Assembly (NCBI GenBank): GCA_011045955.1
Contig: DSBV01000053.1
Coordinates: 1-64,000 of the forward strand
Direction: 5' to 3'
From: Bacteroidales bacterium
Lineage (GTDB): Bacteria; Bacteroidota; Bacteroidia; Bacteroidales; Tenuifilaceae
DNA: 64,000 bases
Shown here one piece after another: positions 294 through 43,345 of this stretch. A program made the position numbers and the translations under genes. Position 1 is the stretch's first letter, and every line of letters starts with the position of its first letter. The notes below the pieces were generated by a model that saw only the letters and a program-made list of their open reading frames with translations, had not been told where the DNA came from and made no database searches.

Positions 294-325
294 AAAGGCT
301 GCCCTTAGGGCAGCCTTTTACTTTT
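294..325. terminator. Intrinsic terminator after lysA
   Basis: A perfect 11-bp stem, AAAGGCTGCCC (294-304) with GGGCAGCCTTT (308-318), overlaps the lysA stop codon. It is flanked by A-rich DNA on the left and T-rich DNA on the right, so it can act in both directions and separate the lysine genes from the IS element. Confidence 0.8.
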
Positions 326-1451
326 TTTCTAATTCGAAATTCCGAATAAACGCACATTGTGGCCGTTCCCTTAGGTTGTAATCCGAGGCCATGGATTCCG
401 CATAGGCTCCACAGGAGTGAATAACAAGCAAATCGCCACGCTCAGTGGTGGGTAGCGAAACTGCTTCGCCAAAGCTATCGGTTGTTTCGCATATCGGTCC
501 TACCACCTCGTAGGTTTGGTTCACGGGCTGGCCTATCTTGTTAATGTTCTCAATGCAGTGGTAGGCGCCATATAGTGCAGGCCGGATAAGAGCATTCATG
601 CCCCCATCAACAACAGCAAAACTACGAGTCTTTGTGGTTTTGGTGTAGAGCACGCGGGTATAGAGTTGGCCGCATTGGCCAACCAGCGATCGACCTAGTT
701 CAAAATGGATTGTTTGATCCTTCCCGGGCTTAAGCCACAGGTTGATAGTTTTGAAATACCCTTCAAAGTCTGCTATCCTATTAATCATGGGGTTATTGTA
801 GTCAATTCCCAAGCCTCCCCCCAGGTTTAGGTAGGGGTGCGCTTTGCTTTGCAGCCTTTCCTGAATGCGATTAACTTCACGAGCTAGGTTCTTGAACACT
901 TCCATGTTCATTATCTGTGAGCCAATATGAAAGTGTAGCCCAATCAGGCTGATATTCTTGTACTTATTTGCTGAATTGAATATTAAGCTTGCTTCTTCAA
1001 CACTCATTCCAAACTTATTCTCTTTCAGTCCAGTGGTTATTGACTTGTGGGTTTTGGCGTTCACATTAGGGTTGATACGAAGAGCTACACGGGCCATTTT
1101 GTTTAACTTCTTGGCAATATGGTTAATCACATGGAATTCTTGAGTCGATTCGCAATGCATGCAGTGTATGTTCTGTTCAATGGCATACTCAATTTCCCAA
1201 TCGGTTTTGCCAACACCCGCAAATACAATGCTCTGGGGCTTAAAACCGTTTTTCAGGGCAGTTTTAATCTCGTTTCCGCTAACACAATCGGCTCCAAACC
1301 CCGCATCCGATATAACCTTTAAAAGGGTAGGGTTGGCATTGGCCTTGATTGCATAATGAACCATATACCCGTACTTTGCTGCTTGGGCATGTGCCGTATC
1401 GAGTGTTTCGTTCAGTAGCGCTAAATCGTACTGGTAGAATGGGGTTTGCAT
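318..1451 (-). CDS. lysA: Diaminopimelate decarboxylase
   Basis: Decarboxylates meso-diaminopimelate to L-lysine, the last step of lysine synthesis, in the cytosol with PLP. The 377-residue protein has the alanine-racemase-like TIM barrel first: YAIKAN supplies the PLP lysine (K36), HFHIGSQ follows, and GGGLGIDY is the phosphate-binding glycine loop. The C-terminal beta domain holds the ELGRSLVG segment and the conserved GPICETTD motif, whose cysteine reaches into the partner active site of the dimer. Length is slightly shorter than the usual ~420. The start lies 2 bases after the lysC stop, so the two form one operon making lysine from aspartate. The gene ends in a strong hairpin terminator. 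Confidence 0.93.
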   Translation of the reverse strand: MQTPFYQYDLALLNETLDTAHAQAAKYGYMVHYAIKANANPTLLKVISDAGFGADCVSGNEIKTALKNGFKPQSIVFAGVGKTDWEIEYAIEQNIHCMHCESTQEFHVINHIAKKLNKMARVALRINPNVNAKTHKSITTGLKENKFGMSVEEASLIFNSANKYKNISLIGLHFHIGSQIMNMEVFKNLAREVNRIQERLQSKAHPYLNLGGGLGIDYNNPMINRIADFEGYFKTINLWLKPGKDQTIHFELGRSLVGQCGQLYTRVLYTKTTKTRSFAVVDGGMNALIRPALYGAYHCIENINKIGQPVNQTYEVVGPICETTDSFGEAVSLPTTERGDLLVIHSCGAYAESMASDYNLRERPQCAFIRNFELEKK

Positions 1452-1453
1452 GG

Positions 1454-2815
1454 CTAAAAGATATTTGCTTCAATGCTCTGTTGGGTTGAGTTACTTACAC
1501 TTACAGCAGGGAAGAGCTGCTGTAGCAGCCTTAGGGCCTGAACTTTATAGTGCGAATCAATCAGGAACGATATGTTGTTAACGCTTCCTCCGTAAGAGAT
1601 CATCCGTATAGGAATCTCGCGCAGGCAATCGAAAACCATTGCGGTATATCCCTTGTGCGATGCAGGGAAATCACCAACTAAACAAACAATGGTTTGGTTC
1701 CGCTCCACTTCCACATGGGCAAATTGGCTTATAGCATTTACAATATTTTCAAGATTAATTGTGTTATCAATGGTAAGCGATATAGATACCTCCGATGTAG
1801 TAATCATATCGACGGGGGTTTTGTATGTGTTAAAAACCTCAAAAACTTTGTGCAAAAAACCGTAAGCTAATAGCATCCGCGACGACTTGATGTTAATTGC
1901 TGTAATGCCATCCTTTGCAGCTACTGCTTTAATTCTTTTTCGGTTTTTCACGGATGAAATTACCGTTCCCTCGTCTGCTGGGTTCAGAGTGTTTTTAAGT
2001 ACAACAGGAATATCCTTTGCCTTGCAGGGATGAACTGTCTGGGGGTGTAGAATTTTTGCCCCAAAGTAGGCAAGCTCAGCAGCCTCGTCGTACGATAATT
2101 GTCGCAATGGGCAAGTATTTGTAACATAGCGCGGGTCGTTATTGTGAACCCCATCAATATCAGTCCAAATCTGTACTTCGTTTGCGTTAAGCACATTGCC
2201 AATAATGGCAGCGGTGAAATCGCTACCTCCTCGGCCAAGATTATTCACTAATCCATTGGTATCAAGGCAAATAAAACCTTCTGTTACATATATATTGGCG
2301 AAAGGGTTAGTGTGTAGTAGCCGCTTCAGGTTTTGTTCAATGTAAAAGAAATCGGGCTCACCATCCTTGTCAATCCTCATATATTCCAGCGCTGGAATGT
2401 ACGCGGTTCTTTTCCCCTGCTCAGTTAGCTGTATGTGGAATAGCCCTGCCGATAGCTGTTCCCCTAAGGCAACTATATTTCGCGAATCGGATTGGTTGTA
2501 GCCATCAATCAATTTCGATAGAATCCGCAGAAACAGGTTGCTTATAAATTCTTCACCCCTTTTTCGGTACATTTTTGAATCAAATAGTTCTTCGGCGGTT
2601 TTTATGTGCTTGTCCTCAAGTTCTTTAGTTTTTTCAATTGCCTGAAGCATTTTACCCGACTTTACAAGCTCTGTGATTTCCACCAAACTGTTTGTAACTC
2701 CTGCCATGGCTGAAAGAACCACCACAATGGGTTCATCGCCATTAAGCAGCTTGCATACCTTTCTAAGCCTATCGGCATTACCCACCGATGTTCCGCCAAA
2801 CTTTAAAACTTTCAT
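1454..2815 (-). CDS. lysC: Aspartate kinase (monofunctional)
   Basis: Phosphorylates aspartate, the first committed step toward lysine, threonine, methionine and diaminopimelate. The 453-residue protein opens with the kinase signature KFGGTSVGNADR (residues 4-15), has GRGGSDFTA for nucleotide and substrate binding around residues 194-202, and ends in about 150 residues of ACT-type regulatory sequence (for example TTSEVSISLTID). It has no homoserine dehydrogenase domain, so it is a single-function enzyme. Feedback inhibition by an end-product amino acid is expected from the ACT region but the effector cannot be read from sequence. Expression is probably attenuated: a promoter, a 44-codon leader ORF and an intrinsic terminator all precede the start. 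It is followed at once by lysA. Confidence 0.93.
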   Translation of the reverse strand: MKVLKFGGTSVGNADRLRKVCKLLNGDEPIVVVLSAMAGVTNSLVEITELVKSGKMLQAIEKTKELEDKHIKTAEELFDSKMYRKRGEEFISNLFLRILSKLIDGYNQSDSRNIVALGEQLSAGLFHIQLTEQGKRTAYIPALEYMRIDKDGEPDFFYIEQNLKRLLHTNPFANIYVTEGFICLDTNGLVNNLGRGGSDFTAAIIGNVLNANEVQIWTDIDGVHNNDPRYVTNTCPLRQLSYDEAAELAYFGAKILHPQTVHPCKAKDIPVVLKNTLNPADEGTVISSVKNRKRIKAVAAKDGITAINIKSSRMLLAYGFLHKVFEVFNTYKTPVDMITTSEVSISLTIDNTINLENIVNAISQFAHVEVERNQTIVCLVGDFPASHKGYTAMVFDCLREIPIRMISYGGSVNNISFLIDSHYKVQALRLLQQLFPAVSVSNSTQQSIEANIF

Positions 2816-2842: not shown

Positions 2843-2871
2843 AAAAAAGGCCTACAGTGTTCTGCAGGCCT
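2843..2871 (-). terminator. Attenuator terminator in the lysC leader
   Basis: On the minus strand AGGCCTGCAG, a 4-base loop and CTGTAGGCCT are followed by six T. The RNA stem is 10 bp with one G-U pair; read on the plus strand the same position is an A-C mismatch, so the hairpin is built for the minus strand. It sits 28 bases before the lysC start and well downstream of the promoter. Leader transcripts would therefore stop here unless the hairpin is prevented. Confidence 0.8.
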
Positions 2872-2896
2872 ATCACTTAATATCAGTGTAATACTT

Positions 2897-3031
2897 CTAT
2901 GATGATTTTATCAATGTGTCAACGGCCTGCTTGTGGGTCTGTTTTTTCATGGTAATAACCATCTGTTTCATGCAAATGGTGTGCATGAAAAACTGTTTAT
3001 TACCCATGGTATAGCAAGCCGAAAATTCCAT
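2897..3031 (-). CDS. Putative lysC leader peptide, 44 residues
   Basis: A short ORF starting about 15 bases after the predicted transcription start and ending about 25 bases before the terminator stem. The peptide has 6 Met, 5 Thr and 6 Lys in 44 residues, with the cluster TICMKQMVITMKKQTHK in the middle. These are the end products of the aspartate pathway, as expected for a translational attenuator. Codons for Lys-Gln-Ala near the end contain GCAGGCC (2924-2930), which is perfectly complementary to GGCCTGC in the 5' arm of the terminator. An upstream nested hairpin (2948-2958 with 2997-3008; inner 9-bp stem 2966-2974 with 2982-2990) lies inside the ORF. Translation is inferred, not shown. 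Confidence 0.6.
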   Translation of the reverse strand: MEFSACYTMGNKQFFMHTICMKQMVITMKKQTHKQAVDTLIKSS

Positions 3032-3052
3032 TTTTACGCTATTTTGTATTTG

Positions 3053-3083
3053 CAAAAATACATTTTTTCTAATATCTAACCAA
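3053..3083 (-). promoter_or_regulatory. Promoter of the lysC-lysA operon
   Basis: On the minus strand TTG (3083-3081), a 20-base spacer and TATTTTTG (3060-3053) match the Bacteroidota housekeeping promoter (TTTG/TTG, about 19-21 bases, TAnnTTTG). Transcription should start near 3046, just ahead of the leader ORF. Confidence 0.75.
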
Positions 3084-3200: not shown

Positions 3201-5654
3201 ATGAAAATTTCGCATAGCTGGCTTACGCAATACCTTAATGTGAGTAAAACACCTGAGGAGATTTCAAGGATACTAACATCAATTGGATTAGAGGTTGAAA
3301 GTTTAGAGGCGATGGAGACCGTTAAGGGAGGACTTGCTGGAGTTGTGGTGGGCGAGGTTTTAACATGCGAAAAGCACCCCGATGCCGATAAACTAAGTGT
3401 TACAACTGTTAATGTTGGTTCAGGTGAGCCTTTGAATATTGTTTGCGGCGCACCCAATGTGGCCAAAGGACAAAAAGTTTTGGTTGCAACTGTTGGGGCC
3501 AAGCTGTATTTTAACAATCAGGAAATAGTAATTAAAAAGGCAAAGCTTCGCGGGCAACTTTCCGAGGGTATGATTTGTGCTGAGGATGAACTGGGTTTAG
3601 GCGATAGCCACGATGGTATAATGGTTCTACCCGCCGATGCCCCTGTTGGTATGCCAGCAGCCGAGTACCTGAAAATAGAAAAGGATTACCAGTACGAAAT
3701 TGGCTTAACCCCTAACCGGATTGATGCAGCCTCACATTACGGTGTGGCCAGGGATTTGGCTGCATACCTAACATACCATGAGAGCCCAGTTAAGGCAAAT
3801 CTTCCGGATGTCTCGAACTTTAAGGTGAATAACAATAGTTTGCCCATACCGGTTGAGGTATTGAACACTGAGGCATGCCCGCGTTACTGCGGTATTACCA
3901 TTAGCGGTGTAAAGGTTGCCCCCTCGCCCGAGTGGCTGCAGAAGCGCTTACGCGCCATTGGGCTTAACCCCATTAATAATGTGGTTGATGTAACCAATTT
4001 TGTTCTGCACGAGGTTGGCCAACCACTCCATGCCTTTGATGCCGACGCCATCAAGGGCAACAAGGTAGTTGTAAGAACTATGCCTGAGGGTACACCTTTT
4101 GTTACACTCGATGGGGTTGAGCGTAAGCTGTCGGCTAACGATTTGATGATTTGCAACGAGAGCGAACCCATGTGCATTGCCGGGGTTTTTGGCGGGTTGC
4201 ACTCAGGGGTTACCGAAAAGACCACAAGGGTATTCCTTGAAAGCGCCTGCTTTAACCCTGTTTATGTCCGTAAAACCGGACGTAGGCACGATTTGCATAC
4301 CGATGCCTCGTTCCGCTTTGAGCGGGGCACTGACCCCAATATAACAATTTGGGCACTAAAGCGTGCAGCGCTTTTGATTAAAGAGGTTGCTGGCGGAACT
4401 ATATCGTCGGAGATTGTGGATGTAAACAGCACTCCTGTTAACCACTTCGAGGTGGATTTCAACATCCACAGGGCATGGAGTTTAATTGGTAAGCAAATCC
4501 CCAAGGCCGATATTGAAAAAATACTCAATGGCCTTGAAATTAAGGTGATAAAGAAAAATGGCCAGCAGTGGCTTTTAGCAGTTCCCCCCTACAGGGTAGA
4601 TGTTCGCCGCGAAGCCGATGTGGTTGAGGATATTCTCAGGATTTACGGGTATAATAACGTTGAAATAGGCTCTAAGGTTAATGGAACATTAAGCTACACC
4701 AAAAAACCCGACAGCCTTCAGATGCAGAATGTTGTATCGGACTACCTCTCGTCCAATGGTTTTGCTGAGATTATGAGTAACTCATTGACTAAGGGCGGTT
4801 ACTATGAGAGGCTTACCTCTTTCCCTGAGGCGAACTCAGTTAAAATTCTCAACCCCCTAAGCAACGAGTTGAATGTTTTACGGCAAACATTGCTTTTTGG
4901 CGGGCTTGAAAGCATTCGGCGTAACACTAATTTCCGTAACCCAAACCTTAAACTCTATGAGTTTGGGAATTGCTATGTGTTCAAACCGCTTGTAAAATCG
5001 CAGAAACCGCTTGATAAATACTCGGAGCATTTCAGTATTGGCGTTTGGCTAACCGGCGATAATATAAAGGAACACTGGATGACCAAACCTGAAAAGCAGA
5101 ATTTTTATCACATGAAGGGTTATGTTCATGCCATATTGAAACGATTCGGTTTTAATACCGATAGGATTGACGTAGCTGAAGCCCTTGAAGATATCTACGC
5201 TTACGGATTAACCTATAAGAATCAAGGACAGCATCTTGTTTCTTTTGGGATGGTAAACTCCGAAATACTCAAGCAATTCGATATTAAGGCCGATGTTTTC
5301 TTTGCCGAGATTATGTGGAAACCCTTAATGGAGATGCTTGCAGGTACTAAGATACAGTACCAGGAGTTACCAAAATTCCCAGAGGTTCGTCGCGATTTAG
5401 CTTTGCTAATCGATTCGTCGGTGAAGTATGAGCAAATCCGAAAGTTAGCCTTTGAAACCGAGCGCAAGCTCCTGAAGAGTGTCAACCTTTTCGATGTTTA
5501 TCAAGGGAAGAATATACCTGAGGGGAAAAAGTCGTATGCAATTAGTTACATTCTTCAGGACGAAAGCAAAACCCTTACCGATGAGCAAATAGATAGGACA
5601 ATGAAGCGCTTGATTGACGTTTACGTAAAGGAGTTAGGTGCGCAAATTCGTTAA
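3201..5654 (+). CDS. pheT: Phenylalanyl-tRNA synthetase beta subunit
   Basis: Large subunit of the cytosolic (alpha-beta)2 enzyme that charges tRNA-Phe. The 817 residues follow the standard bacterial order: N-terminal segment beginning [14 protein letters not shown], an OB-fold tRNA-binding domain ([17 protein letters not shown] at about 52-68), the B3/B4 editing domain, the B5 domain, a catalytic-like core, and a C-terminal anticodon-binding domain ([20 protein letters not shown] around 720). Length is normal. The partner pheS is not next to it. Its 3' end is followed within 7 bases by the macro-domain gene, so the two are probably co-transcribed from the promoter at 3125-3156. Confidence 0.95.
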
Positions 5655-42736: not shown

Positions 42737-43345
42737 TTTCCTTTGGTTTCTGATACTTTATTTACACGGGCAAATTACAAAAATTTGAATAAGATTACAA
42801 GTGAAGGGGAAAAATTTGTGAACCGTGAGCCGTTAAACGTTAAACGAAGTCGAACATCTATCTCCGCCTCCTGTCATCCTGAGCGCAGCGAAGGATCTCA
42901 TGAATGGTGTGCAGTGTTCAGTTTGCAGAGGCTTTTGTTTTTTGATATAATCCAAATGTTGGCGCGCGTCTTCAGACGCGTGCGTTAATCGCCCTGTAAG
43001 GGCAAATCGGATTAGCCCAGGGTTTTAACCCTGGGTGTTGAGGTATTCAAACATTATGCGTTGCACGCTATAGCATTCCAAAGAGCAATGCCGAACCGTT
43101 GCATCGCAAAAGGGAAGCATTCCAAAGAACTATTTCGGGAAACCCAATCAAAAGAGATTGAAGGGTAGAAGGTACGAAGCAATGCTTCGACGGTGCTCAG
43201 CATGCCATGAAGGCCGAATTCTGTTTTACCAACAACCCTTCGTTGGTTCGCGTCTCCTGACGCATGTGTTCTTCAAATCTCCCCTTTTGGTAAATGAGAT
43301 GTTTCACTAACGCTCAACATGACAATATTCTATCGAACAATATCA
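42737..43345. repeat. Gene-free region with hairpin cluster and dispersed repeats
   Basis: About 600 bases without a gene. 42815-42855 holds gtgaaccgtgagccgttaaacg words. 42870-42905 is the tcctgtcatcctgagcgcagcgaaggatctc type repeat also seen at 54695 and 54840. 42964-43036 is a run of three hairpins: CGCGTCT/AGACGCG, GCCCT/AGGGC and CCCAGGGTT/AACCCTGGG. 43080-43200 shares gcaatgcttcgacggtgctcagcat words with 54775-54795. The hairpin run looks REP-like. Confidence 0.6.

Follow-up and report, generated by a model that had tools for sequence, protein, structure and literature searches.

The window, by which we mean the whole 64,000-nucleotide stretch of Bacteroidales DNA analyzed here, carries an aspartate kinase gene, lysC, on its minus strand and, as the next gene, lysA for diaminopimelate decarboxylase. 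The lysC product matches TIGR00657 with 321.9 bits, above the cut-off of 208.7, and its best E-value belongs to PRK09084 (lysine-sensitive aspartokinase 3), where its 387.7 bits stay below the cut-off of 455. The lysA product scores 384.6 bits against TIGR01048, above cut-off. On the other side of the leader, pheT starts at 3201 and diverges from lysC, and the leader occupies the minus strand between these two genes. Its features and those of the genes that follow it are listed here from the promoter downward.

3053..3060, minus: promoter -7 box TATTTTTG, with TTG 20 nt upstream at 3081-3083
3014..3021, minus: region 1, CGGCUUGC, predicted by folding to pair with region 2 (anti-antiterminator)
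2897..3031, minus: leader ORF of 44 codons, MEFSACYTMGNKQFFMHTICMKQMVITMKKQTHKQAVDTLIKSS, ATG to TAG, with 6 Met, 5 Thr and 6 Lys
2966..2990, minus: in-ORF hairpin TTTCATGCA-7-TGCATGAAA at codons 14-22, a candidate pause hairpin
2942..2947, minus: Lys29-Lys30 (AAA AAA), the last control codons before region 2
2924..2930, minus: region 2, GCAGGCC, 5' strand of the antiterminator, inside the ORF
2864..2870, minus: region 3, GGCCUGC, common to the antiterminator and the 5' arm of the terminator
2848-2871, minus: 10-bp stem of the intrinsic terminator, with a 4-nt loop, one G-U pair and a U-run to 2843
1454..2815, minus: lysC, aspartate kinase, 453 aa, ATG at 2815
318..1451, minus: lysA, diaminopimelate decarboxylase

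Far from this locus, at 42990-43035 of the window (minus strand), there is a match to the Acido-Lenti-1 RNA that barely clears its gathering score (37.8 versus 37).

The same arrangement was found in relatives. In 16 of 27 genomes of the family LysC was matched from residue 1 with at least 55% identity, and upstream of lysC all 16 show a Met/Lys-rich ORF and then a GGCCUGC terminator, its U-run stopping 23-34 nt ahead of the gene. A sample of 247 genomes of the order contained LysC at an E-value of 1e-100 or better in 92 genomes (93 places); three of these places were already included, and the same leader stands at two of the 90 further ones, L034 and L035, both of one second family. The 18 leaders on which the counts below are based are the 16 of the family together with these two, L032 having been dropped as a copy of L004, and they are unevenly spread, with seven coming from one genus. 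In all 17 readable loci lysA adjoins lysC, and the 18th (L009) breaks off inside lysC. The sequence-only reading had proposed conservation in the lysC upstream regions of relatives as its check, and the outcome speaks for it: the ORF and both of the pairings described below are kept in the 18 leaders.

A covariance model of the leader's 3' part (R1) matched each of the 16 genomes of the family strongly once, directly before lysC and at 68.9-109.6 bits; in the other 11 no score exceeded 39.7 bits. Since R1 was built from these same leaders, its matches measure uniqueness and not discovery. One of the 11 genomes (G022) has only a C-terminal piece of lysC, then lysA, at a contig edge, where the leader is not visible; its weak R1 match is a gene-end terminator and was rejected as a leader. 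The search was extended with stricter filters to the order (393 genomes), the class (395) and the phylum (395), with class and phylum matches kept at an E-value of 1e-4 or better only, and strong matches (at least 78.9 bits) came solely from the two known families. Weaker matches did not exceed 50.2 bits. Seven of them were examined: L130, L169 and L170 were discarded as gene ends before a terminator, no leader was seen in the inspected sequence of L131, L132 and L135, and L133 is taken up below among the histidine leaders.

The 44-codon ORF, including its 6 Met, 5 Thr and 6 Lys codons, is present in the sequence just as it had first been read, and a Met/Lys-rich ORF of 37-46 codons stands in the same place between promoter and lysC in all 18 leaders. 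The peptide as such is not conserved, since all four sense codons that differ between L001 and L003 change the amino acid; that the ORF is translated is suggested by its open frame and its codon bias. The N-terminus MEFSAC is alike among leaders of the window's genus, and the window's leader peptide has no Pfam or NCBIfam match. Ahead of the ORF lies TATTTTTG, which we take to be a -7 box of the Bacteroidota type. A box of the TAnnnTTG type begins 26-30 nt ahead of the leader ATG in 16 of 18 leaders, the exceptions being L006, whose TATATTTG was missed by the automatic scan, and L010, which deviates. Of the consensus promoter originally claimed, the -7 box is thus present and kept, but the TTG at a spacing of 20 occurs in only three of 18 leaders, the window's included.

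Region 2 and the 3' arm of the terminator compete for region 3, which gives two mutually exclusive pairings. The terminator hairpin with its U-run ahead of lysC, already noted in the first reading, is confirmed, and over the 18 leaders 98.9% of its cells are paired versus 23-59% in slid controls, with a U-run in all 18; two pairs are changed on both sides, and 5 of 500 column shuffles reach as high a value. The complementarity of GCAGGCC at 2924-2930 to the 5' arm of the terminator was another claim of that reading that withstood comparison across relatives. For this antiterminator 97.6% of cells are paired versus 16-42% in slid controls. Its covariation is weak, with a single compensatory change (L035), and its pairing percentage is reached by 31 of 500 column shuffles; the antiterminator is less striking under shuffling because the pairing hardly varies. 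L035 has coordinated substitutions in region 2, region 3 and the 3' arm, by which one position goes from G-C to A-U in both pairings. Mismatches in the antiterminator are confined to one each in the middle of the stem in L006 and L011 and one at the end in L035. When the window's leader is shuffled, a 7-nt complement of the terminator arm appears downstream of the last Lys codon in 7 of 500 cases, and a complementary run of at least 7 nt is found in 16 of 18 leaders, that of the window among them; in L006 the run is 4 (482 of 500 shuffles have one as long) and in L011 it is 5 (49 of 500). Leaders differ in how region 2 would be translated, with Q-A in some and C-R, R-R or S-R in the rest, and its persistence in two reading frames indicates that it is kept as RNA. 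The leader of the window folds with z = -5.49, and none of 200 shuffles is as stable. The sequence-only reading had also taken the terminator's G-U pair, which becomes an A.C mismatch on the opposite strand, as a sign of selection for this orientation. This argument falls away: the position is G-C in 16 of 18 leaders, A-U in L035 and G-U in the window alone, and is therefore a private change of the window's species.

Inside the ORF, a further hairpin at 2966-2990 has 86.4% of its cells paired versus 29-48% in slid controls, a value that none of 500 shuffles attains. Both partners have changed in 23 of its cells, a number that none of 500 shuffles equals, and these changes fall on five of its pairs, a count reached by 56 of 500 shuffles. 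In the alignment used, the hairpin is not clear in L014, L016 and L017. RNAalifold on its own recovers this hairpin and the terminator, and the consensus is just these two simple hairpins. By analogy with trp-type attenuators, the in-ORF hairpin may serve as a pause hairpin. It had been proposed as the alternative partner of GCAGGCC, a role that does not hold up; the partner in the window's genus is CGGCUUGC. This region 1 is kept only there, in seven of 18 leaders, and the 1:2 pairing was rejected as a family-wide element with 58.3% of cells paired over the 18 leaders.

What the leader peptide would read can be judged from its codons. In the stretch that closes with the last Lys ahead of region 2, the 18 leaders, weighted by lineage, have 15.7% Met and 17.1% Lys. 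The corresponding values are 2.3% and 6.6% for 35 long ORFs taken from the window, and 4.9% and 7.8% for the leader codons beyond the last Lys. When 10 of the 18 leaders are compared with their shuffles, Met reaches z = 12.5 and Lys z = 6.4, with none of 500 shuffles as high for either, and among all 20 amino acids tested on these same 10 leaders only Met and Lys exceed the shuffles. Threonine, at 8.2% versus 6.6% in the shuffled sequences, is not enriched in the 10 leaders (55 of 500 as high), and neither is isoleucine (178 of 500 as high). Threonine and isoleucine were thus ruled out by codon counts as sensed amino acids, and of the trio originally named, Met, Thr and Lys, the first and last are borne out and Thr is dropped.

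The strongest competitor to a reading of both amino acids is that the attenuator reads lysine alone and that the Met codons serve the CATG-rich hairpin or some other purpose. Some Met codons do lie within the in-ORF hairpin, which could account for a share of the Met excess. Lysine is what lysA makes, directly after lysC, and Lys is the last control codon in 18 of 18 leaders, Lys having been the residue sought there. The lysC leaders of other lineages of the order, L058 (MKGLKNIVKIKQVKRIKPVYKRM) and L080 (MKKMKKYNKQKKDKTICRALLF), are Lys-rich with few internal Met. In addition, the window's own genome has a SAM riboswitch ahead of its presumed methionine operon (L167 1184-1287, 75.1 bits), which implies that Met is sensed elsewhere. 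In this genome hom (PF00742) is flanked by metY-, metX- and metH-like genes, called by eye. Set against lysine alone is that the Met bias is the strongest of all (z = 12.5 versus 6.4 for Lys) and that L014 and L016, in which the in-ORF hairpin is not clear, still have the runs MAMAMLMKK and MDMSMLKGK. On balance we regard lysine alone as possible but unlikely, and we continue with a leader that reads Met and Lys.

The geometry of the leader fits a ribosome that stalls on these codons. A ribosome footprint reaches about 12 nt past the first base of the A-site codon. In all 18 leaders a Lys codon ends 11-14 nt ahead of region 2, a spacing measured for Lys codons specifically that leaves room for other residues at the same place, and with the assumed footprint a ribosome stalled at the last Lys or earlier leaves region 2 free. 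When the transcript is cut after region 3 and a ribosome is placed on the last Lys codon, the 2:3 pairing has a probability of 0.85-1.00. It also forms in 16 of 18 leaders (0.78-1.00) without a ribosome, so the model by itself does not predict termination in the absence of translation. Once the full terminator has been made, equilibrium folding with a stalled ribosome gives the terminator a probability of 0.99-1.00 in 17 of 18 leaders and 0.59 in L003. Antitermination must accordingly depend on timing, as equilibrium favors the terminator despite the stalled ribosome, and the switch as a whole must depend on timing and on a ribosome between regions 2 and 3.

For the terminating state, the modeled route appears less clear than for the antiterminating one. 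The stop codon lies 4-19 nt past region 2 in 12 leaders and 24-30 nt past it in six, and a ribosome at the stop, with the footprint assumed, would cover region 2 wholly in one leader, partly (1-4 of 7 nt) in eight and not at all in nine. Five of the nine are the far-stop leaders of the window's genus, in which region 1, GGCUUGC or GGCUUGU, pairs with region 2 with a probability of 0.99-1.00. Among the remaining uncovered leaders, L010 has a weaker partner (0.86) and L014, L016 and L017 have partial upstream pairing (0.40-0.81).

A mechanism can be proposed from these states. RNA polymerase would transcribe the leader and probably pause at the in-ORF hairpin, where the first ribosome could catch up. 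With Met or Lys in short supply, the ribosome would stall on one of the Met/Lys codons, of which Lys30 is the last. Its front would stop immediately before region 2, and regions 2 and 3 would pair once region 3 had been made; the terminator would then come too late to form, and lysC-lysA would be transcribed. With ample Met and Lys, the ribosome would move on to the stop codon, where it would either cover region 2 or sit between it and region 3; in the window's genus, region 2 would be bound by region 1 behind the ribosome. Region 3 would be left free for the terminator, and transcription would end about 205 nt after its start, a length that assumes the start site from the -7 box.

Two further explanations dispense with attenuation as the function of the ORF. 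The ORF could encode a small protein, be followed by a terminator of its own and have no part in the control of lysC; an ORF followed by a terminator would look like this, and MEFSAC at the N-terminus is alike within the genus. Yet R1 is strong only before lysC, once per genome, across the 27 family genomes, the RNA motif is kept across a change of reading frame in the C-terminal part, the peptide matches nothing in Pfam or NCBIfam, and the RNA pairs with its own terminator, all of which make a free-standing gene highly improbable in our judgment. Marginally less probable still is a metabolite-binding riboswitch for lysine or SAM with an incidental ORF. The leader is structured, and in Shewanella lysC is reported to be under a lysine riboswitch (PMC2659441), which shares with the present leader the probable control of lysC through the 5' region. 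The lysine riboswitch (RF00168) binds lysine directly, however, and the lysC leader is not a match to it: in the window's leader no RF00168 match was found at or below the gathering score. No other Rfam family matches at gathering score, the low-scoring matches include neither the lysine nor the SAM riboswitch, and the consensus structure consists of two simple hairpins. A riboswitch would also leave the Met/Lys codon bias and the narrow distance from codon to region 2 unexplained. The Rfam matches below cut-off (MicC and others) were taken as chance. A chance origin of hairpin and complementarity in an intergenic stretch is suggested by terminator-like sites being no more frequent over the first 8 kb than in shuffles (9 versus 9.2) and by the nonsignificant complementary run, taken alone, in L006 and L011, but it is refuted by conservation, as ORF, region 2, region 3 and terminator occur in 18 of 18 leaders, and we give it practically no weight.

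Taken together, the evidence makes it very probable, in our view, that this leader controls the lysC-lysA operon by ribosome-mediated transcription attenuation in response to the supply of methionyl- and lysyl-tRNA. Comparison supports this reading, since the ORF with its Met/Lys bias, the two exclusive pairings, the in-ORF hairpin and the spacing of the codons are all conserved. The sequence-only reading had spoken of translational attenuation; a leader-peptide attenuator with an antiterminator/terminator switch stands, but the term "translational" does not, for the switch is an intrinsic terminator, and the process is transcription attenuation by a translating ribosome. On a wider claim we are evenly divided. 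It holds that this is a two-input attenuator, placing the common first step of the aspartate pathway under the supply of either methionyl- or lysyl-tRNA; that, in a phylum with very little work on attenuation, it may be the first of the leader-peptide type to respond to methionine and the first to precede lysC; and that it stands beside Lys-rich lysC leaders which arose, with another sequence, elsewhere in the order. The pair Met and Lys would act on the shared first enzyme of the pathway. The leaders argue by comparison for classical leader-peptide attenuation as a working device in Bacteroidales. Because leader-peptide attenuation needs a ribosome close behind RNA polymerase, they also offer a direct handle on transcription-translation coupling in the phylum. 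The reading predicts a short leader peptide and a terminated RNA, which could be sought by RNA-seq and ribosome profiling.

Other leaders in the same genome and order bear on how widely such devices are used. As a positive control from the window's own genome, the hisG (PF01634) leader MITTGYTTLHHHHHSHRMRMADEHWV at about 2110-2300 of L168 (minus strand) has five His codons in a row and 11 nt complementary to its own terminator region, and leader-peptide attenuation is thus probably used more than once in this genome. L168 also carries a cobalamin riboswitch (2626-2811, plus strand, 116 bits). In another genome of the order (G222), L133 has at 1328-1634 on the minus strand tandem leader peptides, MNLQVLHTAHHQHYIAGMGKLYIIL and MNQKHHHIHHHHSSENQTRQKIL, each with its own terminator, which by sequence is a predicted double his attenuator before frames read by eye as hisG and hisD. 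In L029 (G023) a Thr-rich leader, MFASSFSITTTTTTTTTPVRE, read by eye, lies upstream of an 850-aa frame of bifunctional size with a kinase match, and no clear U-run terminator was seen after it. Among the 90 further lysC places in the order, part of which were judged by scan alone, a terminator near lysC was found at 10. Two of these are the present leader, four have a different Lys-bearing leader (L051, L058, L080 and L096) and four look incidental. The complementary stretch is strong in L058 and L080 (-14.9 and -15.5 kcal/mol) as compared with L051 and L096 (-7.6 and -9.7), and the Lys-rich leaders L058 and L080, from other families, look like separate inventions of a Lys attenuator.

As an idea, leader-peptide attenuation in the phylum is not new. 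Work by Lopatovskaya from 2010 reportedly deals with attenuation in many bacteria and may list cases from Bacteroidota. For Flavobacterium psychrophilum, of the same phylum, "strong clues" for leader-peptide attenuation before amino-acid operons have been described, with hisG and pheA among the conserved 5' elements named and lysC, Met and Lys unnamed in section 19 of that paper (PMC9723704). In B. thetaiotaomicron, sORFs reminiscent of attenuator leaders have been reported (PMC7366714). Among the open-access papers listed, titles and abstract openings name no leader-peptide attenuator for lysC, Met or Lys. The class of attenuator is known, and its lysC member and the pairing of Met with Lys appear to be undescribed.

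Of the classical systems, the trp, his and leu attenuators of E. coli follow a four-region logic in which a ribosome stalled on control codons frees region 2. Regions 1-4 are all present in the window's genus, whereas lysC leaders outside it are without region 1 as defined here; the amino acids and operons are different, and the covarying in-ORF hairpin is separate from the 1:2 pairing. The thrABC attenuator of E. coli also combines a leader peptide containing several control amino acids with a terminator/antiterminator switch before an aspartate kinase gene, there for a bifunctional kinase-dehydrogenase and with Thr and Ile as the amino acids read. The window's leader is no family match to Thr_leader (RF00506), scoring 15.0 bits against a cut-off of 55. 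The lysC leader has Met and Lys in place of Thr and Ile and precedes a monofunctional kinase accompanied by lysA.
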